From assembly GCA_017617935.1 (NCBI GenBank), contig JAFZVF010000023.1, positions 1 to 47,712 on the forward strand: a stretch of 47,712 nt of DNA, read 5' to 3'. Below are positions 200-24,871 of the stretch, piece after piece. How positions within the stretch are numbered: the stretch's first letter is position 1; every line of letters begins with the position of its first letter. Under the pieces are notes generated by a model. It saw only the letters and a program-made list of their open reading frames with translations, had not been told where the DNA came from and did no database searches. Made by a program: the position numbers and the translations under genes. The DNA comes from Clostridiales bacterium (GTDB taxonomy: Bacteria > Bacillota > Clostridia > Saccharofermentanales > Saccharofermentanaceae).

Positions 200-285
200 A
201 CCGATGAAATGAGAGGAATTATTTTTCATCAAAACGAAAACCCCGAAGCGGCAACTTCGGGGTTTTCTATTCCGTTTTTGTAAGG
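200..285 (+). ncRNA. Antisense (antitoxin-like) RNA 1 of an Fst/par-type locus
   Basis: A short untranslated RNA of about 85 nt is predicted from the strong promoter and the rho-independent terminator. Its 5' part can fold into a hairpin (arms GATGAAA at 203-209 and TTTCATC at 224-230). The sequence GAAATGAGAGGA (206-217), mostly in the loop, is repeated perfectly on the same strand at 378-389. There it lies antisense to codons 4-8 of the convergent toxin gene. The RNA therefore carries a 12-nt perfect complement to the beginning of the toxin message, besides the shared terminator hairpin. This is the layout of the enterococcal par locus (RNA I/RNA II with direct repeats and a bidirectional terminator). 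The antitoxin role is inferred. Confidence 0.65.
237..276. terminator. Bidirectional terminator between antisense RNA 1 and the toxin
   Basis: A 12-bp perfect stem (arms 237-248 and 255-266, AAAACCCCGAAG/CTTCGGGGTTTT) encloses the loop CGGCAA (249-254). T-rich tracts follow on the plus strand and the stem is symmetric, so it can end both the rightward antisense RNA and the leftward toxin message. The same stem recurs at 649-678, but with the loop inverted to TTGCCG. Confidence 0.75.
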
Positions 286-312
286 TGGCTTAGGCCTTAG
301 GCTGACTGCTTT

Positions 313-399
313 TTACTTTCTTCCGTCCAGCCATTTGCTGATGTAATTAGCAATTACTCCAGCCATAACAGAAGAAAGAAATGAGAGGATATTCCTCAT
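313..399 (-). CDS. Fst-like type I toxin peptide, 28 aa
   Basis: This is a 28-residue peptide starting MRNILSFLSS and ending ISKWLDGRK. A hydrophobic stretch (about residues 4-21) would span the membrane, and it is followed by a W-L-D and a basic tail. That is the general plan of Fst/Ldr-family type I toxins. The start is fixed by a strong Shine-Dalgarno, GGAAAGGAGG (408-417), eight bases before ATG at 399-397. The start codon can pair in the message with CTCAT a few codons on, which would hide the start as in fst RNA I. The gene converges on antisense RNA 1 and shares its terminator. The toxin promoter is unclear; TTGAAG/TAATTG with 18 bp between them, upstream on the minus strand, is only a weak candidate. 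Family membership is judged by eye, not by a database search. Confidence 0.65.
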   Translation of the reverse strand: MRNILSFLSSVMAGVIANYISKWLDGRK

Positions 400-577
400 C
401 CCGATTACCTCCTTTCCACTACCTAAGTAGAAGTAAAGGTGGGCAGCAATTAGATTTTAGTTTGCGATATCTTCAAAAGAAATACGCGCAGACAAAAGTC
501 GGGACTTTAGGGTATCAAATGGGACTTTTTCGCGAAAATGGGACTGTTGTCCAGCGATTAAATGCAAGCTTTCATGG
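400..577. other. Region upstream of the toxin, TGGGACT words
   Basis: No protein gene is supported here. The stretch must hold the leftward toxin promoter and its 5' leader. GGGACT occurs three times (about 499-504, 530-535 and 550-555) and belongs to the diverged upstream part of the duplication seen at the left edge. Confidence 0.4.
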
Positions 578-17754: not shown

Positions 17755-18519
17755 TTACTGAACTCCCATGAATTCGTCTATCGCCTTGAGCACGGGCGCA
17801 GTGTACTTCTCGCCTCCGAAAAGCCACTGCTCGTGCTGCATGTCGAACTCCCTTATGTCAGGGTCCCTGAAATACTTCAGATAACGCTTCTTATACTTCT
17901 CGCCCATCTTGTTTGCGTAGATGAAATGCGCCGTCGTGCCTTCGACATGGATGTCGTCCTTGAGGCACGTGATGAGGTCCGTGTAAAACTCGTTCTTTAT
18001 TGATTCCTTCTTGAATCTGGTGAAAGACTGAAGGAACATCTCCGCAATGTCTTCCTCCATCTCGAAAGTTTCAATGAACATCTTCTTTGCCTTCTGCTTT
18101 TTCTTTTCGCTCTTGGTAAAGCTCGTGAGGAGCGGAACGACCATCGCGGACTTGAGTTTCGCGGACAGAACACCGCTTTGGTCAAGATCGGGGCTGCCGA
18201 AGATGCCGTGGTCCATGTGGATGTTTTCGCGCATTATAAGCTGGCCGACAAAGGTGCTGCCGAGCGATGATCCGAGCGCGCCGTCGATCCTGCCGCCGTG
18301 CTTTTCCTTGACGTACTTTTCTATCTTTTCAGTGACGGTTATCACGTCGGGAAAGATCAGGTCACTGCCGTCAAAGCCGTCGTAATTGACGCAGATCAGA
18401 TGATACTTTTCGCCGAGCCTGTCGATGACGCTGCTGAAGTTCGCCTGCCAGTCGCAGCACGTTCCGGGGAGCAGCATCAACGTCTTGCCCAATACGTTTC
18501 CTCTTTCTTCAAACGTCAT
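17755..18519 (-). CDS. Alpha/beta hydrolase
   Basis: 254 residues. The oxyanion/entry loop LLPGTCCDW, a strand-turn LICVNYDGFDGSD and the nucleophile elbow GSSLGS (nucleophile S85) place it in the alpha/beta hydrolase fold. The helical lid (about 125-190) is Lys/Glu-rich. No signal peptide, so cytoplasmic. The acid and histidine are less certain; the C-terminal HEQWLFGG is a plausible histidine. Substrate unknown, probably an ester or lipid. ATG 18519 lies eight bases after AGGGGG; an upstream TTG is too near this site. It is 24 bp downstream of the ABC exporter permease gene, on the same strand, and may be co-transcribed. Confidence 0.75.
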   Translation of the reverse strand: MTFEERGNVLGKTLMLLPGTCCDWQANFSSVIDRLGEKYHLICVNYDGFDGSDLIFPDVITVTEKIEKYVKEKHGGRIDGALGSSLGSTFVGQLIMRENIHMDHGIFGSPDLDQSGVLSAKLKSAMVVPLLTSFTKSEKKKQKAKKMFIETFEMEEDIAEMFLQSFTRFKKESIKNEFYTDLITCLKDDIHVEGTTAHFIYANKMGEKYKKRYLKYFRDPDIREFDMQHEQWLFGGEKYTAPVLKAIDEFMGVQ

Positions 18520-18543
18520 ACTCAAATCCCCCTTTTAAACATA

Positions 18544-21500
18544 TTACTCTCTATTCTTCAGAACCATTGCGGGATTTATCTTTTTGAGCCTGCCCGTGAG
18601 CACGAAATTGATGATTAGATAAAGTCCGATGATCACCGCGAAGATGATGACGTACAGTGCCGGCGAATATGAAGGCTCAATACCTACGCCGACATTGGCT
18701 ACGAGGTATCTCGGATAAATGTAATCCATGATGAACTTGGCAAGCGGAAGCACAATGAGCGAACCTATGAAGACGATGTAGAAGTTGCCGTCCAAATACA
18801 TCTTCCTGACTTCCCTGTTCCTGAAACCGAAGATCTTTACGAGCGAGATATTGAACGCCGAGCGGTCGATCATCATCTTTACCATCAGGTACATTACGAC
18901 CAGGAAAATGACCGCTGCCGCCGTGGACATGATTGTTACCATCGGTCCCATCATGTCGACGTAGATACCGGCAGACCTTTCGATCTCAGCTTTCGAGACC
19001 GTGGAATAGAGCCTGCCGCTTTCGATCCCGAGGTCGTGATCCGCGAAGACCACGTTGTAATACTTTTCGTCCTCGCCGAAAAGATCGCGGCACTTTTCAA
19101 TGTCCATGAACACCATGAGCGAAGCCGAGTAATCGCAGATCCTCGCTACCTTGAAAGCATAGAGCCTGTCGCCGTTTTCGCCCTTGAGCGTGAACTCGTC
19201 ACCGACCTTGAGAGCATACTTGACCGCAACTGCCGAACTGACTACAACGTCGCTGTTGTTGTCCGGCAGATCGCCCGTATCAAAGAACGGATTGTCCTTC
19301 GTGATGCCAAGTACCATGACATCAAACGTATGACCGTAGATCTCCTTCTTCAGGCTCTCGGCAACGGCTTCATAGCCGCCTTCGGGAACATCCTCGGTCG
19401 GATATTTGTAACTGTACATGTATTCGTACTTTGTCTGGCTTGTATAGAGGTCTTTGACCTTGGAGCAGTACACCATCGTATTGAGTGCCATCAGTGCAAC
19501 GAGCAGCGCCATGAACAGACCAAGGATAACGGTAAGACCCGCCCTGATCTCGCGGATCATCTGCCTGATCCTGAACATGCTGATGAACTTCAGCCCCCTG
19601 ATCTTGAGGTCTTTTCCGCGGACCGCCTTCTGCTCGTTCCGGAGAAGCGCCAAAGGCGTTTTCTTGAGCCTCTTTCTGATAACGAGGACGTTGACGATCA
19701 AAGCCGTTACCGGAGGGATCACAAGACCGTAGATGAGTATGAAAGGCGTCACCTTTATCGGCAGATCCGGCAGCGAAAAGTAACTCGTGGAATCTGAAAT
19801 CTCCGAAGGGATCCCCGCGGGCGTAAACACTGCCAGAGCCGTTCCGATCAGACCAGAAACAAAAGCCACTATTACAGGCACCGCGACATAGCTCGCGACC
19901 AGCGTCCTTCTCCTGACGCCCATCGAATAAAGCGCGCCGATGACCGAGCTTTCCTGGTCGATCGTGTGCACGATGAATACCGAAATTACGTATGCGAAAA
20001 GCATGATGAGCAGTATCCCGAAAATGATGCTCGCGGTGTAATTGATCTGTACGTCGTCCGCCGCCGAGTCGATCCTGGGATTCTCATCCGCGTTCAGGAA
20101 CATCATGAGGTTCGACGTCTTAATATCGAAAAACTCATCGATGAACTCATTGGTCTTGTCCGAGAATTCCTGCATGCCGTCGGCATATTCCTTTGCACCG
20201 TCCGCGAGCTCTTTTGCTCCGTCGCTTATCTTTTCTGAACCTTCGTAAAGCTCGTCGACTCCGTCAGCAAGCTTTTTAGTGCCCTTCCAAAGTTCGGTCG
20301 TGCCCTTGTGGAGCCCTGACGCGCCGCTTCTCAGGAACACGCTGCTGTCGCTCAGTTTCTTCGTACCCTTATAGAGCTGGCCCGCGCCGTCGCTGAGTGC
20401 AGTCGTACCGGAATTGACTCCTGATACGCCGCTCTTGATCTGCAGGTATCCGTTCGCAAGCTGCTTGGCGGGATCTGCAAAGCTCTTTGCAACTCCCGCT
20501 ACGTAAGGATCGGGGCTGTTTGCGGCCGCGCCCGCCTGGTTGGCATAGGCGTTGACGCCGTCACCATAAGCATTTGCGCCTTTTTCAAGCTGCTTGGTGC
20601 CGCTTGCGAGCTTTGTCGCACCCTTTGAAAGAGACGATGTGCCGGACGCTACTTTTCCCACACCTTTGGTGTACTGCTTAACGCCCTTTTCGAGCTGGCC
20701 CGCGCCCTTGTCCAAGGCCTTGACGCCCTTCTTGAAATCGGGCATCGCGTCCTTCAATTCCTTCATTCCGTCCTTATATTCCTTAGTACCATCGGCAAGT
20801 TCCTTCGCACCGTCGGAAAGCTCCTTTGCTCCGTCCCTGAGCTTGTCGATGCCCTCAAGAAGATCGTCCTTCTTGCCGGTCATCCTCTTCCAGTATTCGC
20901 GGAAATACTCGTCGTCGACGTCGCTCACCTTGAATTCAATGTCCTCAAGCGTCTTCTTGAGCTCGTCCTCGCTCATCGCGCCGTTTAACAGGAACGCGTA
21001 GTAGTATTCTTCCGAAGACAGCGACTTGCCATTCGCGTAAAGTTCATCGTAAGCGTCGCCCGTCAAAAAGATGAGCCCGAAAGCCCTCGAATCCGAAACG
21101 GAATCCGAGACCTTCTTGATTATCGTGTTGTAATCGGGCGTGACGCCGATGCCTGTGACAGTGAAGTCTTTTCCGCCTATGGAAACGGTGTCGCCGAGCT
21201 TTACTTCGTTGACTTCGGAATAGCGTCTCTCGATCACCGCCTCGTTGTCTTTTTCCGGAAGGCGGCCGTCGATCAGCGAGATCTTGTTTATGTTTTCCCT
21301 GACCTTGAATGCCCTCAGGACCTGCTTTTCGTTAACGGCATAATCCACAAAGAACATCTTTTCGATCGATACGCCTTTGTCCGTCAGATTCTTTTCCTCT
21401 TCAGCGCGGAGCGGCACAAAGACCGAGAACTCGCCGTCTTCTCTGCAGAGCTGTTTGTCGCTTTTCTCGGTACAGTCGATTACCGTGACCGCCGCGCCCA

Positions 21501-21612
21501 TGAGGCTGACGACAATGAATATCGAAAATATGATCAGCGCCGACAGAGCGATATATCTCGCCCAGCCCGCTTTCAGGTCGCGGAGCGCCCTTTTAAATAA
21601 GATCCATCCCAT
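18544..21612 (-). CDS. FtsX/MacB-like ABC transporter permease, 1022 aa
   Basis: A large permease with an N-terminal membrane span (about 15-38), a long extracytoplasmic part, FtsX-type membrane bundles near residues 530-690 and again 890-1015, and a second extracytoplasmic domain between them. Within the first outer part (about 255-480) there are many repeats of the type ELxDGxKELxDG and LxKGxxxLxxG, like those of YhgE/Pip proteins, expected to form a long coiled or helical rod. With the ATPase encoded one base upstream it forms a MacB-type mechanotransmission exporter or a protein-acting machine rather than a small-molecule pump. The single-base gap between the two genes points to tight co-translation. 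The substrate is not known. Confidence 0.88.
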   Translation of the reverse strand: MGWILFKRALRDLKAGWARYIALSALIIFSIFIVVSLMGAAVTVIDCTEKSDKQLCREDGEFSVFVPLRAEEEKNLTDKGVSIEKMFFVDYAVNEKQVLRAFKVRENINKISLIDGRLPEKDNEAVIERRYSEVNEVKLGDTVSIGGKDFTVTGIGVTPDYNTIIKKVSDSVSDSRAFGLIFLTGDAYDELYANGKSLSSEEYYYAFLLNGAMSEDELKKTLEDIEFKVSDVDDEYFREYWKRMTGKKDDLLEGIDKLRDGAKELSDGAKELADGTKEYKDGMKELKDAMPDFKKGVKALDKGAGQLEKGVKQYTKGVGKVASGTSSLSKGATKLASGTKQLEKGANAYGDGVNAYANQAGAAANSPDPYVAGVAKSFADPAKQLANGYLQIKSGVSGVNSGTTALSDGAGQLYKGTKKLSDSSVFLRSGASGLHKGTTELWKGTKKLADGVDELYEGSEKISDGAKELADGAKEYADGMQEFSDKTNEFIDEFFDIKTSNLMMFLNADENPRIDSAADDVQINYTASIIFGILLIMLFAYVISVFIVHTIDQESSVIGALYSMGVRRRTLVASYVAVPVIVAFVSGLIGTALAVFTPAGIPSEISDSTSYFSLPDLPIKVTPFILIYGLVIPPVTALIVNVLVIRKRLKKTPLALLRNEQKAVRGKDLKIRGLKFISMFRIRQMIREIRAGLTVILGLFMALLVALMALNTMVYCSKVKDLYTSQTKYEYMYSYKYPTEDVPEGGYEAVAESLKKEIYGHTFDVMVLGITKDNPFFDTGDLPDNNSDVVVSSAVAVKYALKVGDEFTLKGENGDRLYAFKVARICDYSASLMVFMDIEKCRDLFGEDEKYYNVVFADHDLGIESGRLYSTVSKAEIERSAGIYVDMMGPMVTIMSTAAAVIFLVVMYLMVKMMIDRSAFNISLVKIFGFRNREVRKMYLDGNFYIVFIGSLIVLPLAKFIMDYIYPRYLVANVGVGIEPSYSPALYVIIFAVIIGLYLIINFVLTGRLKKINPAMVLKNRE

Positions 21613-21613
21613 A

Positions 21614-22315
21614 TCAGAGGTCCTCCAGCTGCGCCGCCGGCACCTTGGTGTCGTTGTAGTAATCCTTGTAGATCTCGCCGTCCTTGAGATAGATGACGTG
21701 ATCGACCATCTGCTTGATCGAATTGTTATGGGTGACGATCAGCATCGTCGTACCGTACTGTTTGTTGATCTTTTCGAGCAACACGAGGATGTCGCGCGAA
21801 GTCTTTGAATCCAGCGCGCCCGTGGGCTCGTCGCACATTAGTACTTTCGGGTTCTTCACGAGCGCCCTGGCGATGGCGCATCTCTGCTGCTGACCGCCCG
21901 AAAGCTGCGACGGGAACTTGTACTGGTGCTCAGTAAGTCCGAGCACGTTGAGGAGTTCATCGAGTTCGAGCGGATCCTTCGTCAGGTATTCACAGACCTG
22001 TATGTTCTCCCTGACCGTAAGATTGGGAACCAGATTATAGAACTGAAAGATGAAGCCCAGGTTGTCTCTTCTGTAATTGGAAAGTTTTTCACCTTTGAGA
22101 CCCTCGATCAGTGTCCCCGCGACTGACACGCTGCCGGAATCAATGACGTCCAGGCCTCCGATGCAGTTGAGCAATGTTGATTTGCCCGAACCGGACGTGC
22201 CCTGGATTACGCACATCTCGCCTTTTTCGATCTTGATGCTGATGCCTTTGAGGACCTGCATGTAGCTGCCGCCCTCACCGTATGCCTTTTTCAAATCCTT
22301 TGTAACAATGAACAT
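21614..22315 (-). CDS. ABC transporter ATPase of the MacB/LolD type
   Basis: 233 residues with all nucleotide-binding motifs: Walker A GTSGSGKST (39-47), Q-loop FQFYNLVPNLTV, signature LSGGQQQR, Walker B VLMCDEPTGALD and the H-loop IVTHN. It drives the permease encoded directly downstream. The leader between this gene and the riboswitch region holds a TTAGC-AGAG-GCTAA dyad (about 22347-22360) near a TAATAT -10-like box, possibly an operator. Confidence 0.92.
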   Translation of the reverse strand: MFIVTKDLKKAYGEGGSYMQVLKGISIKIEKGEMCVIQGTSGSGKSTLLNCIGGLDVIDSGSVSVAGTLIEGLKGEKLSNYRRDNLGFIFQFYNLVPNLTVRENIQVCEYLTKDPLELDELLNVLGLTEHQYKFPSQLSGGQQQRCAIARALVKNPKVLMCDEPTGALDSKTSRDILVLLEKINKQYGTTMLIVTHNNSIKQMVDHVIYLKDGEIYKDYYNDTKVPAAQLEDL

Positions 22316-22435
22316 AAATACACTCCATTCACTACTGTGTTAATATTAGCCTCTGCTAACTGCTTGGTGCACATGTTGTTTTCAACAATGTTTTTCCTTT
22401 TGCGGTCTTCCAATTTGTGAATTGGTTGTCCTGTG

Positions 22436-22501
22436 CTAACTAGAGTGTGGAGAAAAGATCTTTTGTTCTGAGACTTGCGACTGCGTTTGTTTTCTGCTCA
22501 T
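22436..22501 (-). pseudogene. 21-codon frame behind the riboswitch, probably a gene remnant
   Basis: ATG 22501 follows a perfect GGAGG by four bases and is the first frame after the riboswitch terminator; it reads MSRKQTQSQVSEQKIF and stops after 21 codons. Riboswitches of this class normally precede a manganese exporter (MntP, a P-type ATPase or a TerC-like protein). None is here, so this may be the surviving N-terminus of a deleted gene, or a leader peptide. Confidence 0.4.
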
Positions 22502-22510
22502 AAAACCTCC

Positions 22511-22540
22511 AAAAACAAAAAAATATGGCCGAAGCCATAT
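22511..22540 (-). terminator. Riboswitch expression-platform terminator
   Basis: On the minus strand a 7-bp stem, ATATGGC/GCCATAT with a TTCG tetraloop (22523-22540), is followed by TTTTTT-G-TTTTT. An upstream hairpin (CATGTATA 22582-22589 with TATACATG 22564-22571) shares its CATG with the 3' strand of aptamer helix P1 and carries CGAAGC in its loop, which can pair with GCTTCG of the terminator. These are the parts of a transcription switch. Confidence 0.7.
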
Positions 22541-22585
22541 CAAAACGATTTCTGGAGAAACGTCATGTATAGCTTCGCAGTTATA

Positions 22586-22667
22586 CATGAGTCTCGCAAT
22601 TTAAAACAAGCCAGGCCTATCGCCAGTATGTTGACTTGTTACGCAGTACGCTTGCTACTCCCTCATG
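22586..22667 (-). ncRNA. yybP-ykoY (manganese) riboswitch aptamer
   Basis: Minus-strand RNA with closing helix CATGAG (22662-22667 side) / CTCATG (22586-22591 side). Just inside the helix lie GGGAGTAGC and, at the other end, GCGAGAC. These are the two conserved joining segments of yybP-ykoY RNAs, which form the Mn2+ site. GTCAACATACTGG in the middle also matches the class, as recalled from known examples. A TTGACA-17 bp-TAGCAT promoter starts it a few bases upstream. Recognised by motif and layout; a covariance-model search would settle it. Confidence 0.75.
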
Positions 22668-22680
22668 GGGTACACGTTTG

Positions 22681-22709
22681 ATGCTATCAGCCTATGTCTG
22701 ATCTGTCAA
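22681..22709 (-). promoter_or_regulatory. Riboswitch promoter
   Basis: Perfect -35 TTGACA (22704-22709), 17 bp, -10 TAGCAT (22681-22686) on the minus strand; transcription would begin about 10 bases before aptamer helix P1. Confidence 0.65.
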
Positions 22710-22752
22710 GTTTCGTTTTTCCCGGATCAGAGCTGCCTGCCCGGGAAAGTTT

Positions 22753-23265
22753 TCATCGCTTCGGAAACCAGGGAATGCACCTGTTCACCTTGCTCTTGTA
22801 TTCTTCATATTCCTCGCCGTAAACGTTTTTCAGCCACTTCTCTTCCGTGTTTTTCAAAACAACCGTCAGGATTGCCCAATCGATAAGGAACAGCGGCAGC
22901 GAGACTATGTTGTGCCACATGAGCCCGATCCCCGTCATGGCAAACCACCATCCCGAATACATCGGATTTCTCACCCAGGCATAAATGCCGTCGGTCTTGA
23001 GCCTGTTCTCCGTGATGTTCTCGTCCATTCCCGAGCGCACCGCCGCGATGAACCAGATGGGAAGTCCGAGCACGATCCCAAGCGCTCCCACGATCCTGAA
23101 TGCAAGGATCCAGGCGCCCCCGAGAGTTCCGGTCTTAAACAAGTACGCCGCCAAAGCGATGACCGCCGCGTTCAGGAGCGCGATCCCGTAGATCAGATAA
23201 GGTCCGATGCCGAACATCGGGAGCTTCTGCCCTTCTTTTGTGTAATTCTTTAACGTGTTTTTCAT
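22753..23265 (-). CDS. ICMT-like membrane methyltransferase
   Basis: 170 residues with four to five membrane spans and the C-terminal signature of the isoprenylcysteine carboxylmethyltransferase/PEMT superfamily: YAWVRNPMYSGWW, EEKWLKNVYGEEYEEYKSKVNRCIPWF. The Arg-Asn-Pro-x-Tyr and the E-E-x-x-L-x-x-x-x-G-x-x-Y pattern bind S-adenosylmethionine. The bacterial substrate is usually unknown. ATG 23265 follows AGGAG with seven to eight bases between. Its promoter carries a palindromic operator. Confidence 0.85.
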   Translation of the reverse strand: MKNTLKNYTKEGQKLPMFGIGPYLIYGIALLNAAVIALAAYLFKTGTLGGAWILAFRIVGALGIVLGLPIWFIAAVRSGMDENITENRLKTDGIYAWVRNPMYSGWWFAMTGIGLMWHNIVSLPLFLIDWAILTVVLKNTEEKWLKNVYGEEYEEYKSKVNRCIPWFPKR

Positions 23266-24478: not shown

Positions 24479-24871
24479 ATGGCTTTACAGGAATCCGGTG
24501 AGATGTATCTCGAGACCATATACGTCCTTTCACAGAAATCAGAAGAAGTGCGCGCGATCGACGTCGGCGAGTACATGGGATTCTCAAAGCCGTCCGTAAG
24601 CCGCGCCCTGGGGCTCCTGCGCGAGGAAGGCCTCGTAAAGAACGACGCAAACGGCTACCTCAAGCTCACAAAGGCGGGCGAGATCCACGCAAAGCGGATC
24701 TACGAGCGCCACACCCTGCTCACGCAGCTTTTCATCAATCTCGGCGTTGACGAGAAGATCGCCGCAGAGGACGCGTGCCGCATCGAGCACTACATCAGCG
24801 ACGAAACTTTTGAAGCCATAAAGACGCACGCAAAGGATTTCGGAAAGAAAAAACCGGACGGAAAAGCCTGA
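24479..24871 (+). CDS. DtxR-family metal-dependent repressor, iron-type ligands
   Basis: 130 residues: a winged helix-turn-helix (about 25-65, with FSKPSVSRALGLLREEGLV) and the metal-binding dimerisation domain. Aligned to MntR, the ligands are M9, E12, H78, C100, E103 and H104. MntR has Asp and Glu where this protein has Met and Cys; DtxR and IdeR have Met and Cys. The protein is therefore predicted to respond to ferrous iron rather than manganese. There is no SH3-like domain, as in other short members. ATG follows AAAAGGAG. The stop TGA abuts the stop of the convergent next gene, forming TGATCA. Confidence 0.85.
   Translation: MALQESGEMYLETIYVLSQKSEEVRAIDVGEYMGFSKPSVSRALGLLREEGLVKNDANGYLKLTKAGEIHAKRIYERHTLLTQLFINLGVDEKIAAEDACRIEHYISDETFEAIKTHAKDFGKKKPDGKA

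Follow-up and report, generated by a model that had tools for sequence, protein, structure and literature searches.

A Mn2+ riboswitch without its own gene, probably tied to an FtsX-type ABC operon in five Saccharofermentans-group species

What does a Mn2+ riboswitch control when no full-length gene stands directly behind it? The question is raised by a stretch of 47,712 nt from a Clostridiales bacterium (contig JAFZVF010000023.1), hereafter the window. On its minus strand, between 22709 and 22499, a promoter is followed by a Mn2+ (yybP-ykoY) aptamer, then by a switch hairpin, an intrinsic terminator and a ribosome site; an open reading frame (ORF) of 21 codons comes next. An earlier note on this DNA had described these parts, including the bases that the switch hairpin shares with helix P1, and all of them were found again on the minus strand. 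It had proposed that an exporter gene was deleted and that the riboswitch was left either idle or newly in control of a MacB-like operon further on. The riboswitch does stand before a MacB-like, FtsX-type ABC operon, which we call ABC-2. The features of the locus are collected in Table 1.

Table 1. Features of the riboswitch, of the ABC-2 operon and of the neighbouring regulator gene.
Feature	Position	Strand	Sequence or evidence
Sigma-70-like promoter of the riboswitch	22681..22709	(-)	TTGACA (22709-22704), 17-nt spacer, TAGCAT (22686-22681)
Mn2+ (yybP-ykoY) aptamer	22585..22668	(-)	R1 and R2 covariance models; covariation
Switch hairpin CTCATGTATAACTGCGAAGCTATACATGA	22563..22591	(-)	Sequence; minimum-energy fold, -10.6 kcal/mol
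Proposed antiterminator	22534..22573	(-)	GCTATA (22573-22568, 3′ arm of switch hairpin) with TATGGC (22539-22534, 5′ arm of terminator)
Intrinsic terminator GATATGGCTTCGGCCATATT and T run	22515..22541	(-)	Hairpin 22541-22522, then T7; mean identity 97% over five species
Ribosome site GGAGG and ATG start	22499..22510	(-)	Apparently left over from the former gene of the riboswitch
21-codon ORF MSRKQTQSQVSEQKIFSPHSS	22436..22501	(-)	Body 55% identical on average, frame-shifted between the five species
Operator box 1 of the ABC-2 promoter, degenerate, GTTAGCACAGGACAAC	22425..22440	(-)	In most relatives with boxes, located -127 to -130 relative to the ABC-2 start
Operator box 2 of the ABC-2 promoter, GTTAGCAGAGGCTAAT	22345..22360	(-)	Located at -45 to -49, both in the window and in relatives, whether or not these carry the riboswitch
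ABC-2 ATPase, 233 aa	21614..22315	(-)	PF00005, E = 4.5e-33; MacB/BceA/LolD-like
ABC-2 permease, 1022 aa, FtsX-type, XXXLXXG heptad coil	18544..21612	(-)	PF02687, E = 1.2e-22, two stretches; TIGR03057 repeats
Alpha/beta-hydrolase-like gene behind ABC-2	17755..18525	(-)	No Pfam match; 28% identical (E = 3e-14) to the L231 hydrolase
DtxR/MntR-family regulator	24479..24871	(+)	PF02742, E = 3.6e-15; PF01325, E = 1.3e-10

Architecture and class of the element

The riboswitch promoter matches the consensus at 10 of 12 positions and has TG ahead of its -10 element, and is weak evidence alone because one such site is expected there by chance. TTGACA-type promoters likewise lie upstream of riboswitch copies linked to another ABC operon, ABC-1 (see below), and in two relatives, G009 and G018, the promoter has been swapped for one of another type. 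The aptamer consists of P1 (CATGAG/CTCATG), L1 (GGGAGTAG), P1.2 (GCAA/TTGC), P2 and P3. Its L3 reads ACATACT (22631-22625), the metal-sensing adenosine corresponding to 22629. The motif CTCATG is common to the 3′ strand of P1 and the 5′ arm of the switch hairpin, which is thus a competing expression-platform hairpin. Local RNA stability is above that of shuffled sequences (z = -3.7), and between 22200 and 22900 no terminator was found besides the riboswitch's own. Elsewhere in the window, 228-443 (-) matches the Rfam family RF02442 (SpF66 sRNA) at 53.7 bits, against a cut-off of 42.

Two covariance models bear on the class of the aptamer. R1 was built from 24 sequences, the window among them; R2 was built from 21 mntP-linked aptamers of other genera only, without the window or its genus. 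The window aptamer scored 97.1 bits with R1 (E = 2e-24) and 92.5 bits with R2 (E = 1e-27), the runner-up site in the window reaching 12.9 bits in the R2 search. The RNAalifold structure for R2 is nearly the same as the structure drawn for R1. Covariation in the two alignments exceeded that of almost all of 500 shuffles; in one of them 12 pairs were changed on both sides, and none of 500 shuffles scored as high. Helices P1, P2 and P3 are supported by covariation with mntP-linked members. L3 of the window, ACAUACU, is identical to that of the crystallised X. oryzae aptamer, ACA48UACU (PMC6754395), and the metal-sensing adenosine is invariant in alignments A1 and A3. The crystallised aptamers have a P4 helix and a four-way junction (PMC6754395). 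The window aptamer has no P4, and a few unpaired bases lie between P3 and P1.2. Since the mntP-linked copies of A3 lack P4 as well, its absence is treated as a trait of the subtype and not as a defining one.

The Rfam model of the class, RF00080, gave a local match of 17.6 bits to the window aptamer, below its cut-off of 45; such a score had been named in the earlier note as refuting the assignment. However, RF00080 gives mntP-linked copies of this order 25.6-28.1 bits, likewise below 45, and among nine control genomes with any RF00080 match only two exceed the cut-off. The cut-off does not discriminate here, because these positive controls also fall short, and it was dropped as a test of membership; the low score of the window is uninformative. 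Judged from its sequence, the element is a genuine Mn2+ riboswitch of the yybP-ykoY class, as had been proposed. At its present cut-off RF00080 misses likely true members in this order.

A riboswitch of this class might respond to a metal other than Mn2+. In this respect it may be considered that boxes next to the riboswitch also mark an FeoA-like gene, and that ABC-linked copies often have a variant L3, ACAUCCU. However, the L3 of the window is the canonical ACAUACU, as in 78 of the 79 mntP-linked copies listed, and the Mn2+-sensing adenosine is kept, so that we consider another ligand very unlikely. The variant itself carries an A to C change two positions past the metal-sensing adenosine. 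Among the copies listed it occurs in 11 of 18 ABC-linked, all five P-type-ATPase-linked and one of 79 mntP-linked aptamers (L182, L187, L235, L236, L244, L246, L247, L251 and others), and it may tune affinity or metal choice.

Partners of the riboswitch and the region upstream of ABC-2

In the Saccharofermentans group 43 of 85 genomes carry copies detected by R1, 59 in all. At the loci read in the genus the partner is either mntP or the FtsX-type operon ABC-1 (ATPase of ~235 aa, permease of ~898 aa), directly upstream of which the riboswitch stands in 27 genomes. The proposed loss of an exporter holds in one part: the riboswitch's own first gene is missing, but its usual partner in the genus is ABC-1, not a classical Mn exporter. 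As the lost exporter mntP is unsupported, since the window genome does carry this gene, with no riboswitch attached.

For the partner counts the named genomes were scanned and at least 116 riboswitch copies were read. Among the 116 copies listed, the partner is mntP in 79, an ABC operon in 18, a P-type ATPase in five and another gene in seven, the remaining seven lying on pieces too short to tell. The other genes include three that look cation-antiporter-like from their sequence, and an alpha/beta hydrolase in L231. Several groups, divergent from one another, can be told apart among the ABC partners, and the FtsX-type operons under the riboswitch are ABC-1, the types of G080/L235 and of G021, and a 740-aa type of Lachnospiraceae. 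No paper joining yybP-ykoY with MacB or FtsX was found in the literature searched. The sole match for manganese riboswitch, ABC transporter and efflux was a C. difficile review, which lists a P-type ATPase under a Mn riboswitch. Two kinds of aptamer-like sequence were seen besides. A degenerate one lies upstream of a TetR-like gene (L169, G170:C88, 1575-1652) and is possibly a decayed riboswitch; another, with a different L3 region, shares its locus with a normal copy (L208:2447-2542, minus strand), with similar ones in L181 and L243.

ABC-2 is found in ~35 genomes of the genus. Because its ATPase and permease are separate genes, and because the permease reaches 26.2 bits with MacB_PCD against a cut-off of 27, the operon is called MacB-like and FtsX-type only. 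A PDB sequence search with the permease returned coiled-coil matches only, and an AlphaFold2 model (mean pLDDT 41.8) was set aside. The alpha/beta-hydrolase-like gene behind the permease probably belongs to the same operon; its L231 relative stands directly under a Mn2+ riboswitch.

The repeats CTSTGCTAAC, which the earlier note had described as flanking the 80 bp behind the ORF, are real and lie at 22431-22440 and 22351-22360 of the plus strand. They are the half-sites of two GTTAG-N6-CTAAC palindromes. Two such boxes ~81 bp apart are found in many ABC-2 loci with and without the riboswitch, and since this spacing is kept in both, the repeats are putative operators of a second promoter, not deletion scars; a scar at this place was ruled out. 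The same box occurs three times upstream of the FeoA-like gene of the window genome and is also found at mntP promoters of relatives; across the window genome the pattern shows no general excess over its reverse. In G076 and G082 (L311, L312, L313) ABC-1 carries GTTAG..CTAAC boxes instead of the riboswitch. From these loci it seems that a metal control on such operons may be either the boxes or the riboswitch, the one replacing the other. The box type and the neighbourhood make the product of the DtxR/MntR-family gene, whose best NCBIfam model is MntR, below its cut-off, a candidate binder of the GTTAG boxes.

In nine riboswitch-free ABC-2 loci (L085, L086, L087, L092, L095, L096, L100, L101, L110) a Fur-like box, TGATTTTGAGAATCGAAATCA, or a close variant stands ~167 bp ahead of the operon. 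A promoter with a CATATG..TTCATATG box is common to ABC-2, the ABC-1 of G012 and the riboswitch of G009 and G018 (L083, L088-L091, L093, L094, L098, and G009 and G018 upstream of the riboswitch). This CATATG-box type drives ABC-2 directly in G002 and others and precedes the riboswitch in G009 and G018.

Conservation and origin of the arrangement

The order riboswitch then ABC-2 is found in five species of the Saccharofermentans group, all rumen bacteria: the window, G039, G009, G018 and G028. In each, the riboswitch is followed by the ribosome site, an ATG, a short ORF that shifts frame and the regulatory region of ABC-2. On average the aptamer is 94% identical, the switch arm 95% and the terminator 97%; the ORF body reaches 55% and the promoter and leader 48%, and 4-fold sites of the neighbouring ATPase gene lie at 39-60%. 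The ribosome site before the ORF is ~90% identical, which suits either a recent change or a role of translation, and all five species have retained AAACGCAGT directly behind the start codon. A conserved 21-residue peptide, named beforehand as evidence against a lost gene, is absent; with its frame shifts and low nucleotide identity, a leader peptide or attenuator ORF was rejected, and the ORF is probably a drifting remnant. The upstream neighbours vary, an ICMT-like gene in the window and G028 and other sequence in G039, G009 and G018, while ABC-2 is constant. Because conservation is strong, ABC-2 stays as the upstream side changes, and the riboswitch of G009 and G018 sits behind the CATATG-box type of promoter that elsewhere serves ABC-2 itself, a working element tied to ABC-2 is favoured: the riboswitch has probably been reused rather than left over.

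This comparison also bears on the readings in which ABC-2 is not the target. Had the first gene been lost and nothing taken its place, the riboswitch would still make a short, Mn2+-gated transcript, but one of no consequence. The ORF has just 21 codons and is unconserved, a ribosome site and a start codon can still be made out, and ABC-2 is served by a separate promoter region; with ~200 nt and this second promoter between terminator and ABC-2, termination at the riboswitch could make no difference to the operon. However, an element without effect accords poorly with an aptamer-to-terminator segment so much better conserved than the neighbouring 4-fold sites and the drifting ORF beside it, or with a link to ABC-2 that outlasts changes upstream. 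The idleness offered as an option in the earlier note is thus disfavoured, and we regard it as unlikely. Alternatively the leader might be the product, either as a Mn2+-dependent small RNA acting in trans or through a regulatory translation of the short ORF. A short transcript with a strong ribosome site and the invariant nucleotides past the start codon would suit such a role, which we judge to be similarly improbable, since the peptide is not conserved and a trans-acting RNA would not need the adjacency to ABC-2 that is kept. Finally, the riboswitch might still have its gene in the living cell if the window were mis-assembled. The assembly is a draft of 110 contigs and 81% completeness, but the same junction recurs in five genomes, each time on a contig of its own and with differences particular to the species, and an artefact is extremely improbable.

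The ribosome site found behind the riboswitch, followed by ATGAGC, also opens the ABC-1 ATPase gene in L060, L062, L063 and L064, and followed by ATGAGT it does so in L061. On the basis of the shared expression platform and ATGAG start only, the module would descend from a riboswitch directly before ABC-1. ABC-1 itself was not found in the draft assembly of the window or in G039, G009 and G018. G028 carries both arrangements; its ABC-1 contig is 99.4% identical to a contig of another species, so that transfer or contamination is possible. A simple deletion in place, as first proposed, lacks support: in G031 and G074 the ICMT-like gene adjoins ABC-2 without a riboswitch, whereas in the window and G028 the riboswitch lies between them, and the module may therefore be an insertion. 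Both routes, loss of an adjacent ABC-1 and insertion of the riboswitch alone, are possible. In G076 ABC-1 lies upstream of ABC-2, and both share one strand with DtxR-like, FeoB-like and hydrolase genes over ~18 kb. This cluster has no riboswitch, and no locus was found from which the window arrangement could directly descend; among 28 ABC-2 loci read outside that arrangement, none has a riboswitch.

Proposed control of ABC-2 and comparison with known systems

Where the riboswitch of this genus precedes mntP, the 3′ strand of P1 doubles as the 5′ arm of the terminator, and an ON switch results. The ABC copies instead have a separate hairpin that captures the 3′ strand of P1; the 3′ arm of this hairpin is able to pair with the terminator further on, at its 5′ arm. 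In a comparison of 85 distinct arm pairs, the cognate duplex averaged -8.0 against -7.1 (sd 0.17) for permuted pairs, a value reached in none of 2000 permutations, relatedness being uncontrolled. The antiterminator of the window is short, GCUAUA/UAUGGC, with 6 bp, one of them G-U (-5.1 kcal/mol).

We infer that the riboswitch controls ABC-2, and put at about 0.6 the probability of the full reading: that it is a functional transcription ON switch, descended from an ABC-1 leader, whose distal promoter supplies read-through into ABC-2 on top of a proximal promoter with DtxR-like boxes. In favour of it also count the lack of any further terminator found in 22200-22900, the repeated position of the class ahead of this transporter superfamily, and the Mn2+ riboswitch directly before the hydrolase homologue in L231. 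At high Mn2+, P1 would be held and the switch hairpin could not form; its freed 3′ arm would pair with the 5′ arm of the terminator, and polymerase would pass the 21-codon remnant and enter the ATPase, permease and hydrolase genes. At low Mn2+ the switch hairpin and the terminator would form, leaving ABC-2 to the proximal promoter alone, which is probably under a DtxR/MntR-like repressor at the GTTAG boxes.

A wider reading, which we hold only tentatively, is that Mn2+ riboswitches were placed repeatedly on FtsX-type ABC operons, with at least four divergent permease groups besides ABC-2. These transporters might then form an unrecognised arm of manganese homeostasis, and the lineage of the window would have passed the switch from one operon to another with its function kept and its first gene lost. 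The aptamer class is known; its link to FtsX-type ABC operons is the part that we did not find in the literature searched. This link singles out a group of transporters that can be tested for a part in manganese handling. In the five species the riboswitch looks as if it survived the loss of its gene and came under the use of another operon, and the case makes such a change of target directly testable.

The window element shares L1, L3 with its metal-sensing adenosine, P1.1/P1.2, P2 and P3 with the yybP-ykoY riboswitches (RF00080; L. lactis yoaB, X. oryzae). As in these, P1 competes with an expression-platform hairpin, and a transcription ON logic is likely. Unlike them, it has a three-way junction without P4, a separate switch hairpin with a distant terminator, and no full-length gene directly behind it; its likely target is an FtsX-type ABC operon with a promoter of its own. 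The mntP-linked Mn2+ riboswitches of Lachnospiraceae and relatives (L252, L241, L212) have a nearly identical aptamer and the same layout of switch hairpin and terminator, but in contrast to the window mntP follows directly. Closest are the riboswitch-ABC-1 operons of the same genus (L060-L064), with the same aptamer, a near-identical terminator and the same ribosome site and ATGAG start. There ABC-1 follows at once, whereas in the window it is gone and ABC-2 stands in its place with a second promoter. ABC-2 in turn resembles the MacB/BceA/LolD-type exporters in its ATPase sequence and FtsX-type permease, and differs from them in its separate ATPase and permease genes, its two FtsX stretches and its long XXXLXXG coil.
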